Of a stretch of 49,829 nucleotides of DNA, positions 3,111-31,010 are shown in pieces. This DNA is from Candidatus Sumerlaeota bacterium (GTDB lineage: Bacteria; Sumerlaeota; Sumerlaeia; JAFGJS01). How positions within the stretch are numbered: position 1 is the first letter of the stretch; each line of letters begins with the position of its first letter. The stretch lies in NCBI GenBank assembly GCA_016928995.1, contig JAFGJS010000050.1:1-49829 (forward strand). Direction: 5' to 3'. Under the pieces are notes generated by a model. That model ran no database searches. It was not told where the DNA came from and saw nothing but the letters and a program-made list of their open reading frames with translations. The position numbers and the translations under genes are program-made.

Positions 3111-3208
3111 CGAATGATCCTGTTCAAACTCTCGTAAACAAGGCGCCAAATTAGCGGGGCGTGGTCCAATTAGCAAGTGAGGAAAAATGGATAAACCATA
3201 AAACCGCC

Positions 3209-3368
3209 TTTTTTTGACAGGATCGACGGGATTGACTGGATTAGGATGAGATTCTTTTTTTGCGGATAAGCCTCGTTTAATCAGTAATATACAGTTCAAT
3301 GCCATTTATTAATAATGTTATTTTGCTGTATGCATCTCGTTAATCCTGTTCATCCTGTCAAAAAAATT
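3209..3368. repeat. Inverted pair of a dispersed intergenic repeat; gap 3111-3565
   Basis: The 455-bp gap between uvrA (minus) and the transketolase-like gene (plus) holds no convincing gene. It contains two inverted copies of a degenerate repeat with the core TTTTTTGACAGGAT followed by GGATT units, one at about 3209-3250 and the other, on the opposite strand, at about 3336-3368. Translated, such repeats give NPVNPV-like strings, which is why open frames run through them. The arms could fold into a long hairpin with a ~90-base loop. Similar repeats occur between genes in many unrelated bacterial genomes; function is unknown. I saw no clear promoter for uvrA here. Confidence 0.7.
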
Positions 3369-26870: not shown

Positions 26871-27941
26871 ATGGATGTTGAATTGACCAAACAGGAAATC
26901 GAACAATGGGTGCGCGAAACGAATGAAGCGGCGTTGGAAGAGCTTTGGCGCACAGCGGATGAGATGCGGAGGCGGACGGTGGGCGAGGCGGTGCATCTGC
27001 GCGGGCTGATCGAGATTTCGAACCATTGCGTGCGGCAATGTGGGTATTGTGGTTTGCGCGCGGCAAACAAGGGACTCGAACGCTATCGTATGTCTGAGGC
27101 GGAGATTCTGGAATGCGCGCATCAGGCCGTCTGCTATGGCTATGGAACCGTGGTGATGCAGGCCGGAGAGGATTACGGCATCACGCGCGATTGGCTGGCG
27201 GACGTGGTGCGGCGGATCAAAGCGGAAACATCGCTGGCCGTGACGCTGAGCATGGGAGAGCGTCCGCGCGAGGAACTGGAGACCTGGCGCGAGGCCGGCG
27301 CCGACCGCTATCTGTTGCGTTTCGAAACCTCCGATCCTGAACTTTATAACCTGATCCACCCAACGCCGTCAGCGCGGGCGTATCAGGATCGCATGGCGAT
27401 TCTGCGTGATCTGCGCGAACTGGGTTATGAAGTGGGCAGCGGCGTGATGGTGGGGATTCCGGGACAGAGTTACGCGAGCCTGGCCAATGACATCGACACC
27501 TTCCGCGACTGGGATCTGGATATGATTGGCGTGGGGCCATACATCTCGCATCCCGACACGCCGCTCGGGCGCGATGAATGCCGCAAGGTCATTGCGCCTG
27601 AAGAGCAAACGCCCAACACAGAACTGATGACCTACAAGGTCGTGGCGCTGACGCGGCTGATCTGCCCGGAGGCGAACATACCGAGCACCACGGCGCTGGC
27701 GACGCTCAACCTGAAAGAGGGTCGCGAACTCGGCTTGCAGCGCGGCGCAAACGTGGTGATGCCGAACCTGACGCCCGTCAAGTATCGCGCGCTGTATGAA
27801 ATTTATCCATCCAAGGCATGCATCTTTGAGTCGTCCGACGATTGCAGTCATTGTCTGGCGGGACGCATTCGAGCCATCGGCCGTGAAATCGGCACAGGCC
27901 CTGGCGGACGCCTGCGCAGTAATAAAAAATCATCTCAATAA
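26871..27941 (+). CDS. hydE: [FeFe]-hydrogenase maturase HydE (radical SAM)
   Basis: HydE is the second radical SAM maturase of the H-cluster; it acts on the HydG-derived Fe(CO)2(CN)cysteine synthon in dithiomethylamine assembly. The 356-residue protein has the CX3CX2C motif at C53, C57 and C60, the AGEDYGI segment typical of HydE, and a C-terminal domain with the expected length. Its stop codon TAA lies within the left target duplication of the MITE-like element next to it, so the insertion left the coding region intact. No hydrogenase large subunit lies in this window. Confidence 0.95.
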   Translation: MDVELTKQEIEQWVRETNEAALEELWRTADEMRRRTVGEAVHLRGLIEISNHCVRQCGYCGLRAANKGLERYRMSEAEILECAHQAVCYGYGTVVMQAGEDYGITRDWLADVVRRIKAETSLAVTLSMGERPREELETWREAGADRYLLRFETSDPELYNLIHPTPSARAYQDRMAILRDLRELGYEVGSGVMVGIPGQSYASLANDIDTFRDWDLDMIGVGPYISHPDTPLGRDECRKVIAPEEQTPNTELMTYKVVALTRLICPEANIPSTTALATLNLKEGRELGLQRGANVVMPNLTPVKYRALYEIYPSKACIFESSDDCSHCLAGRIRAIGREIGTGPGGRLRSNKKSSQ

Positions 27942-27942
27942 G

Positions 27943-28096
27943 TGATGTTACGCAGTGAGTGTTTCCTTGGACTGCGCAGGCCATGCCTGCGCCTTGGATC
28001 AGCGAAATTATCTTCTCAATCCGGTGTAATTCAATTATAATGTAATGCGGCGGCATGGCCGCCGCAGTCCAAAACGCCAAGTGTGCGTAACATCAG
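27943..28096. mobile_element. 153-bp MITE-like element with 8-bp target duplication
   Basis: Terminal inverted repeats TGATGTTACGCA (27943-27954) and TGCGTAACATCA (28084-28095) are perfect over 12 bp, and inner arms around GGACTGCGCAGGCCATGCC and GGCATGGCCGCCGCAGTCC continue the symmetry. The octamer TCAATAAG stands directly before it (27935-27942) and again after it (28097-28104), one base off the right end. This is the pattern of a short non-autonomous transposon with an 8-bp target-site duplication. The left copy contains the hydE stop codon. No transposase is in the window. Confidence 0.8.
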
Positions 28097-28131
28097 TCAA
28101 TAAGCGATTCTCGACTCCCAACGAGTCAAAA

Positions 28132-28168
28132 CGATACGTTTATCTAATATCAAAATTGAATCGTATCG
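28132..28168. promoter_or_regulatory. Inverted repeat upstream of clpB
   Basis: CGATACG (28132-28138) and CGTATCG (28162-28168) form a 7-bp inverted repeat with a 23-base spacer, about 175 bp before clpB. This could be an operator, but it does not match CIRCE or any heat-shock element that I can name. No sigma-32-type promoter was seen in the 240 bp before clpB. Confidence 0.3.
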
Positions 28169-28343
28169 ATTTGCCTCAGTGTATGTCGTCATTACGCATC
28201 CACAATGAAATGGCGCACATCTATATCCTTTATTTCCAGTCATATAGATATTCATGCATTTTGGCATATTCTTGGCCTGATAAACAGGCAGGAACATGAA
28301 ATGCGCCTTCGCTGATCGGCGGCGCATATTGCAGGAGACTGAA

Positions 28344-31010
28344 ATGCGACTCGACAAACTGACTTTCAAATCGCAGGAGGCCTTGACCAACGCCGCAGAG
28401 CGAGCGGCGAACCATGGACATCAGGAGATTATGCCTGAGCACTTGCTGCTGTCTCTGATCGAACAGGACGGCGCGGTGAAACCCGTGTTGCAGAAAATCG
28501 GCGTCGATCTGAACACACTCACGCAGCGGCTTGAGGAGCATGTGGAACGCTTGCCGCGCGTGTCGGGGGAGACGCTGGATCAACCGGGATTGAGCCATGC
28601 CTTGCGACGCGCGCTGGATCAAGCGTGGAAGCAAGCGCAGAAACTGAAAGATGAATATCTTTCCAGCGAACATCTTTTGTTGGGCTTGACGCAATCCGGC
28701 ACACAAGCGGCGGAACTCCTGCGCGCGATGGGCGCCGATGAAAAATCGGTGCTCTCCGCGCTGAAAGAGGTGCGCGGCTCGCAGCGTGTGACGGATCAAA
28801 ATCCGGAAGACAAATATCAGGCGCTGGAGAAATACGGACGCGACCTGACGAAGATGGCGCAGGCCGAGAAGCTCGATCCGGTGATCGGACGCGACAATGA
28901 AATCCGGCGTTTAATCCAGGTCTTGTCTCGCCGTACGAAGAACAATCCAGTGCTGATCGGCGAACCGGGCACGGGCAAGACGGCGATTGTGGAAGGCTTG
29001 GCGCGACGCATCGTCAGCGGCGATGTGCCCGAGGGCATCAAGCACAAGCGCCTGATCGCGCTGGACCTTGGCGCGCTGGTGGCCGGCTCGAAATTCCGCG
29101 GCGAGTTCGAAGACCGTCTGAAGGCTGTACTCAAGGAAATCGAAGCCAGCGACGGCGAAATTATTCTCTTCATCGACGAGTTGCACACGCTGGTCGGCGT
29201 GGGCGCGGCGGAAGGCGCAATGGACGCGAGCAACATGCTCAAGCCGGCGCTGGCGCGCGGTATGCTGCGCTGCATCGGCGCCACGACGCTGGACGAGTAT
29301 CGCAAGTACGTGGAAAAAGACGCGGCATTGGAACGGCGCTTTCAGCCGATCCAGGTGAATGAGCCGACCGTGGAAGACTCCATCGCCATCCTGCGCGGTC
29401 TGCAGGAGCGTTACGAGGTGCATCACGGCGTGCGCATCAAGGACGGCGCGCTGGTGGCCGCGGCGCTGCTCAGCAACCGCTACATCAGCGACCGTTTCCT
29501 GCCGGACAAGGCCATCGACCTGATCGACGAGGCCGCCTCGCAGCTGCGCATCGAAATCGACTCGATGCCCAAGGAGATCGACGAAGTTCAACGCCGCATC
29601 ATGCAGCTCGAAATCGAGAAACAGGCGCTGAAAAAAGAATCCGATAAAGCCTCAAAGGAACGCCTGCAGCGCCTGGAGGAAGAACTGGCCGAACAGCAGG
29701 AAAAAGCGAATGAGATGATCGCGCGCTGGCAGAATGAAAAGGAGCGCATCTCGAAAATTCAGGAATACAAAGAGCGTCTGGAGCAAGCCAAGCTCGATCA
29801 GCAACGCGCCGAACGCGAAGGCGATCTGCAACGCGCCGCCGAGCTCAAGTATAGCATGATTCCGCGGATCGAACAGGAAATGGGCGCGATGAAAGAGCAA
29901 CTCGCAGCCGTGCAGAACGGACACCAGCTGCTCAAGGAAGAAGTGGACGAGGAAGACATCGCGGAGATCGTCGCGCGCTGGACCGGCATTCCCGTGTCGC
30001 GGCTGCTCGAAGGCGAAATGGAGAAGCTGGTTCAAATGGAGGACCGGTTGCGCCTGCGCGTGATCGGACAGGAAGCCGCGATCAGCGCCGTGGCGAACTC
30101 CGTGCGCCGCGCGCGCGCCGGATTGCAAGATCCGAACCGTCCCATCGGTTCGTTCATTTTCCTTGGCCCGACCGGCGTGGGCAAAACAGAACTCGCGCGC
30201 TCGCTGGCGCAGTTCCTGTTCGACGACGAGCAGAACATGGTGCGCATCGACATGTCCGAATACATGGAGAAGCACAGCGTGGCGCGGCTCATCGGCGCGC
30301 CTCCGGGATACGTGGGCTATGACGAAGGCGGACAACTCACCGAAGCCGTGCGCCGCAAACCCTACAGCGTCGTGCTGTTCGACGAGATCGAAAAGGCGCA
30401 CCCGGACGTGTTTAACATACTGCTGCAGATTCTCGAAGACGGCCGCCTGACCGACAACCAGGGCCGCACGGTGAACTTCAAGAACACCGTGCTGATCATG
30501 ACCAGCAACGTCGGCTCGCAGTTCATCGAGGAAATGAGCCGCAACTCCGTCAGCTTGGCGGGCAGTGAGTCTGAAAGCAAAAAAAATGTGGCACAGCCGC
30601 CCTCAGCTGTGACCTCTCACGAACAAATGGAAGTGCTGGTGCGCGAAGCCCTGCGCTCGAACTTCAAACCGGAGTTCCTCAATCGCGTGGACGAAATCGT
30701 GATCTTCAACAACCTGGGCCGCGAAGAGCTGAAGTTGATCATCGAGATCCAACTGCAGAACGTGCAGCGCCGCCTTGACGACCGCGAGATCAAATTGCAA
30801 TTGACCGATGCGGCGAAAGAATTGCTCTTGGAGCAAGGCTACGATCCGTCCTACGGCGCACGGCCGCTCAAGCGCGCCGTGCAGAAGCTGATTCTCGATC
30901 CGCTGGCGCTGGAACTGCTGGAGGGCAATTTCGTTGATGGCGACGTCATCGCCGTGGACGTGAATCACAGCAAAGAAATTGTTTTCTCTCGCGCCACGGC
31001 TCATGTATGA
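28344..31010 (+). CDS. clpB: ATP-dependent disaggregase ClpB
   Basis: ClpB is the hexameric AAA+ unfoldase that, with DnaK, resolubilises aggregated proteins. The 888-residue protein has an N-domain with two Clp repeats (residues 1-150), Walker A GEPGTGKT at 206-213, a coiled-coil M domain (about 395-525, EKEKA-rich) that separates ClpB from ClpA and ClpC, and Walker A GPTGVGKT at 608-615. The ATG at 28344 has GGAGACTGAA before it and gives [10 protein letters not shown], the family start; the upstream ATG at 28296 adds 16 non-conserved residues. Between the AAA2 large domain and [13 protein letters not shown] is an extra ~20 residues with [10 protein letters not shown] (748-757) encoded by a short palindrome, not usual in ClpB. 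Confidence 0.96.
30588..30613. repeat. Palindromic repeat inserted in frame in clpB
   Basis: GGCACAGC...GCTGTGAC (30589-30612, seven of eight pairs) forms a hairpin with a small loop. It encodes VAQPPSAVT, a peptide seen where such dispersed repeats enter coding sequence. The codons on both sides keep the ClpB frame. The preceding run of eight A also is unusual for the gene. Confidence 0.65.

Follow-up and report, generated by a model that had tools for sequence, protein, structure and literature searches.

What is the non-coding segment that begins directly at the stop codon of hydE, and how could it have come to lie there with the gene left whole? The window (the whole stretch of DNA analysed, 49,829 nucleotides) contains hydE, the gene for the [FeFe]-hydrogenase maturase HydE, as an ORF at 26871–27941 on the plus strand (TIGR03956 at 323 bits, cut-off 254.6), with its TAA at 27939–27941. 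We propose that the adjoining segment is very probably a MITE with a REPIN as its cargo, moved by a DDE transposase of the IS701 group (NF049921) through ends of sequence CTGATGTTACGC. By this mechanism an IS701-family DDE transposase would act on the CTGATGTTACGC ends of the non-autonomous element; insertion into the AT-rich TCAATAA that includes the hydE stop codon would have duplicated the target and left the gene intact; and a REPIN (two inverted REP hairpins around a linker, like those beside a gene for a REP-associated tyrosine transposase, RAYT, in the source genome) would have been carried inside the MITE ends, the composite spreading as one unit through these outer ends.

Structure of the element

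The original prediction described a MITE-like element with 12-bp perfect terminal inverted repeats, and these are present (TGATGTTACGCA at 27943–27954 and TGCGTAACATCA at 28084–28095), flanked by the direct repeats TCAATAAG at 27935–27942 and 28097–28104. It was right about a non-coding element between flanking repeats but not about its length of 153 bp: sister copies place the boundaries at 27942 and 28096, giving 155 bp. The terminal base of the left end is G in the hydE copy, where sister copies show C as the family base. The left terminal inverted repeat (TIR) is GTGATGTTACGCA at 27942–27954 (+; family consensus CTGATGTTACGCA), and the right one is TGCGTAACATCAG at 28084–28096 (−).

The direct repeats also stand, although as 7 bp rather than the 8 bp first proposed. 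The eighth base, G, belongs to the element on the left and to the host on the right, so that a 7-bp duplication, TCAATAA at 27935–27941 and 28097–28103, is the simplest reading and the one that the sister copies suggest. The left duplication was said to hold the hydE stop codon, and the TAA indeed makes up its last three bases; as read from the sequence, hydE keeps its own TAA and the gene is unchanged by the insertion.

Between the TIRs lie two REP hairpins, A (TTGGACTGCGCAGGCCATGCCTGCGCCTT, a 29-nt unit at 27967–27995, +) and B (AATGCGGCGGCATGGCCGCCGCAGTCCAA at 28044–28072, −), an inverted pair 48 nt apart. Comparison of copies shows that the length of the intervening linker (27996–28043) is kept and its sequence is not. 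The inner arms do pair further, as predicted (MFE −69.8 kcal/mol, z −6.9), but not around a single palindromic core; there are instead two separate GC hairpins, the form of a REPIN. The ORF list has no long ORF inside the 155 bp, and an Rfam scan of window positions 27000–29000 gave no match.

Downstream, clpB runs in the same direction as hydE at 28296–31010 (+; ORF and profile match). At 30588–30611 a weak palindrome, CAGCCGCCCTCAGCTG, encodes an in-frame VAQPPSAV of this gene and may be a repeat within coding sequence.

Copies in the source genome

A DNA search with the element yielded 91 matches in the source genome, the best with 91, 90 and 81% identity over nearly its full length and the others lower. 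The 12-mer CTGATGTTACGC, allowing at most one mismatch, had 84 matches there, whereas its reversed control had 15. Pairing of ends gave 47 candidates, of which 36 remained once overlapping or doubtful ones were dropped. Perfect duplications flank 17 of these 36 curated pairs (14 of 7 bp and 3 of 8 bp); the 19 pairs lacking them are, as expected, older copies or fuzzy matches. The original prediction had proposed a search for more copies that share these ends and are flanked by duplications, and took a lack of duplications or variation of the ends in other copies as the sign of a non-transposing repeat; among young copies neither was seen. The family is short, non-coding, dispersed and multi-copy, with 12-bp inverted ends and a duplicated target, as MITEs are, and this assignment is borne out by the matching transposase family found in other genomes (see below).

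Target sites and stop codons

Targets of 7 bp include TTATTAA, TTATTCA, TCAATAA and TTACTAA, and the duplicated 8-bp targets are TTATTTAA, TTATCTAA and CTATTTAA; all are AT-rich, near-palindromic and of the type TTA-N1/2-TAA. This target set from the source genome is unbiased because the search used the element and its end alone, whereas that from other genomes is biased because the target was part of the search pattern.

Since the target motif ends in TAA, stop codons are natural targets. With ORFs of at least 80 aa, and with flanks rejoined into empty sites, five of the 36 insertions (at hydE and four other ORFs) are flush with a stop codon. As background, 214 kb hold 106 non-interior sites of the same motif, of which 4 are flush (p about 0.02, or 0.008 for the duplication-perfect copies alone). 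For other genomes the figures are 6 of 120 non-interior ends versus none of 411 motif sites (p 1e-4). These statistics rest on naively called ORFs and on background sites near elements. On this moderate evidence the excess over the same-motif background appears real, and selection against insertions elsewhere may add to the bias.

Conservation, folding and a possible regulatory role

In nine duplication-perfect A/B copies, identity is 97% in the hairpins, 91% in the ends, 60% in the linkers and 45–55% in the spacers. Perfect duplications mark recent insertion, so most of the differences between linkers arose before these copies inserted. Over many generations the lineage of the element has probably kept transposing while its ends and hairpins stayed nearly constant. 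The hairpins may have been conserved through recognition by the RAYT, through a structural requirement of the MITE or through selection for insertions that do no harm, three possibilities that fit these data alike; we infer that the hairpins contribute to the success of the element.

A different reading of the same data is that the element is retained for a function at gene ends, as regulatory RNA, terminator or stabiliser, its mobility being past. The strong fold (z −6.9), the greater conservation of hairpins than of linker, and the stop-flush insertions above background all fit this reading. Yet a terminator scan found no terminator-like site, the copies sit in intergenic regions of every arrangement (tandem, convergent and divergent), and the conserved ends and perfect duplications require transposition to have been recent. 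We consider a retained regulatory role unlikely.

A REPIN as the interior

The REP hairpin design has 69 matches in the source genome. Among 68 hairpins examined, 31 lie between two TIRs, 17 have a single TIR beside them and 20 have none, and A–linker–B pairs occur without any TIR. The genome also holds a REPtron, on contig C131 (L140:2140–3150), where a RAYT gene lies between REP A and REP B and is followed by further A/B units. The protein scores above the cut-off of NF047646 (REP-associated tyrosine transposase), and the hairpins flanking its gene have the design and orientation of those in the MITE interior. Inverted conserved REPs, a length-conserved variable spacer, and a RAYT gene bordered by those REPs make up the published REPIN layout (PMC3116915), and the interior shows all of these. 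Such hairpins are also present, without the IS ends, in a genome of the same class (G013). The TIR-less REPINs, the RAYT with its pair of REPs and the hairpins of G013 suggest that the REPIN is the older part, ancestral and framed only later, in this lineage, by the IS ends.

A possible objection is that the REPIN alone is mobile, by means of the RAYT, and that the outer inverted repeat is merely its palindromic landing site. The TIR-less pairs and the REP-flanked RAYT agree with this, and there is precedent in A. variabilis and H. neapolitanus, where REP dimers are reported to lie within long palindromes (PMC3733652). The perfect 7- or 8-bp duplications, however, lie outside the outer repeat, which moreover encloses unrelated interiors in this genome and in other phyla, as well as a transposase gene in full ISs. 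We regard movement of the REPIN alone as very improbable, and return to the outer ends as those through which the MITE with its REPIN cargo would move.

The proposed parent transposase

The MITE ends CTGATGTTACGC are identical to the ends of ISs that encode IS701-family transposases (NCBIfam NF049921); exact ends were found at L182, L300, L301, L302, L303 and L305. The L182 element, from a Neisseriaceae MAG, is a complete IS of 1,070 bp, exact at either end and flanked by duplicated TTATTAA. Its transposase is above the cut-off for Pfam DDE_5; the best NCBIfam match is NF049921 (IS701_2) at 217.6 bits, below the cut-off of 250, the gene being partly masked as N. Other tblastn matches of this transposase among the pattern loci adjoin the same end. 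Seven relatives on plasmids have exact or near-exact ends; all seven transposases exceed the NF049921 cut-off, and four of the ISs have perfect 7-bp duplications. Ends are exact in the plasmid ISs of Polaromonas (TATTTAA duplicated), Acinetobacter (TTATTTA), Thiothrix, Cyanobacterium and Stanieria, and near-exact, with 7-bp duplications, in those of Polaromonas H6N and Moraxella. The Acinetobacter IS (L305, on an A. schindleri plasmid) lies between blaNDM-1 and aph(3')-VI.

A transposase with matching inverted repeats, which the original prediction had proposed to look for, is therefore found in other genomes and not in the source genome itself. No IS701_2 or DDE_5 transposase scored above threshold there (the assembly is 92% complete), and none scored above cut-off in 40 genomes of the phylum; the element is consequently an orphan MITE in this assembly. 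MITEs usually have an autonomous partner in their own genome, although this is not indispensable. The missing transposase counts against our proposal, as do the G at the left terminus of the hydE copy and the 19 pairs that lack perfect duplications. The extended 14-mer end is absent from the other genomes of the phylum searched, where the nearest relatives belong to the same class, and a DNA search of the plasmid collection gave no match to the element. Loss of the transposase, a gap in the assembly or a transient presence would fit its absence equally well, and we infer that it came and went in this lineage.

The ends might instead derive from another family whose duplications are 7–8 bp long and whose ends are CT. 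The ISPepr1 subgroup of IS4 is one such, with 7–8 bp repeats, 5'-CT ends and AT-rich targets (PMC2266710), but the published ISPepr1 end consensus, YT-AA-YTT---A, differs from the MITE ends at two positions, the DDE_Tnp_1 transposases of the source genome all lack these ends and were rejected as partners, and every full IS found with the MITE ends encodes an IS701_2-type transposase, so that we rejected ISPepr1 as the parent and give this origin hardly any weight.

The same ends with other interiors

The IS701-type ends are not confined to REPIN interiors. Elsewhere in the source genome they enclose unrelated self-complementary sequences. When TTANTMACTGATGTTACGC was sought in one genome per species, the matches listed included Gammaproteobacteria, Bacteroidota, Chloroflexi, Verrucomicrobiota, Planctomycetota, Acidobacteria, Latescibacterota, Campylobacterota and others, with about 15 of the matches listed expected by chance (our own arithmetic). 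The interiors of 23 duplication-perfect elements from other genomes are likewise unrelated and self-complementary, and 20 of the 23 fold with z < −3 against mononucleotide shuffles. An Opitutaceae MAG (G061; L192) has very many copies of a MITE with the same ends around a different palindromic interior, GGCCTGACCTTGTGTCAGGCC (480 first-look candidates); no such palindrome was found free of the ends, all 20 loci read having at least one end nearby. TAACTGA heptamers of Beggiatoaceae, considered as further instances of these ends, were mostly tandem arrays before start codons and were not taken.

The window holds a second dispersed repeat at 3208–3363, an inverted pair of TTTTTTTGACAGGATCGACGGGATTGAC and GTTAATCCTGTTCATCCTGTCAAAAAAA without CTGATGTTACGC ends. 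Related pieces occur at about 40 places in the genome, and on contigs C48 and C62 the module is itself cargo within CTGATGTTACGC ends.

Foldback interiors are common in MITEs generally, and for that reason these interiors are only suggestive of capture. Tentatively, and with the balance still tilted against it, we raise the idea that bacterial phyla share, in the CTGATGTTACGC/TTANTAA frame, a near-invariant mobile end that repeatedly captures host palindromes (here REPINs) because efficient mobilisation needs a foldback interior; such composites might then be served by two transposases, a DDE enzyme outside and a HUH tyrosine enzyme inside.

A REPIN nested in an IS701-type MITE joins elements of known kinds in a combination that we did not find described in the literature searched, and a literature search for the end sequence gave no description of such an element among the matches listed. 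MITEs and REPINs are usually treated apart; this tractable nested case links them. The occurrence of the same 12-bp ends in many phyla provides a handle for annotating unlabelled intergenic repeats, the conservation of the hairpins makes a foldback role in MITE mobility testable, and the recurrent targeting of stop codons illustrates a way for such elements to multiply in compact genomes while doing little damage.

Comparison with known systems

The closest likeness of the outer frame is to the NF049921-group ISs, which are annotated near ISAba11: they share with the MITE the identical 12-bp ends and the 7-bp AT-rich duplication of TTA..TAA pattern. They encode a transposase, whereas the MITE does not, and no likeness was seen beyond the ends. 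ISAba11 proper, from Acinetobacter, is more remote. TTACGCA is shared in the ends, but its transposase is distant (about 28% identity), its ends are TAGGACTTACGCA against CTGATGTTACGCA in the MITE, and its duplication is 5 bp (PMC7885321), with CATAT seen, against 7 bp; given this duplication and these ends, ISAba11 is not the direct parent. An IS on a Piscirickettsia salmonis plasmid (L352) also has TTACGCA in its ends, CTCACCTTACGCA, with an 8-bp duplication, where the ISAba11 copy at L351 has TAGGACTTACGCA and 5 bp; duplication length thus varies within this transposase lineage.

The interior resembles the REPINs and RAYTs of Bertels and Rainey 2011 (PMC3116915) in its inverted REPs, its variable spacer of conserved length and its REP-flanked RAYT. 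Unlike those REPINs, that of the window is framed by DDE-transposon ends and spread with them. A counterpart of the composite as a whole is QMITE2 of Coxiella burnetii, a MITE that contains a REP and lies mostly in 3' untranslated regions (review, PMC10969869). It is a different MITE in a different host, and we liken the two by description, ends aside. Truncated copies of QMITE2 look like REPs, whereas the source genome has TIR-less REPINs and a REPtron beside the composite.
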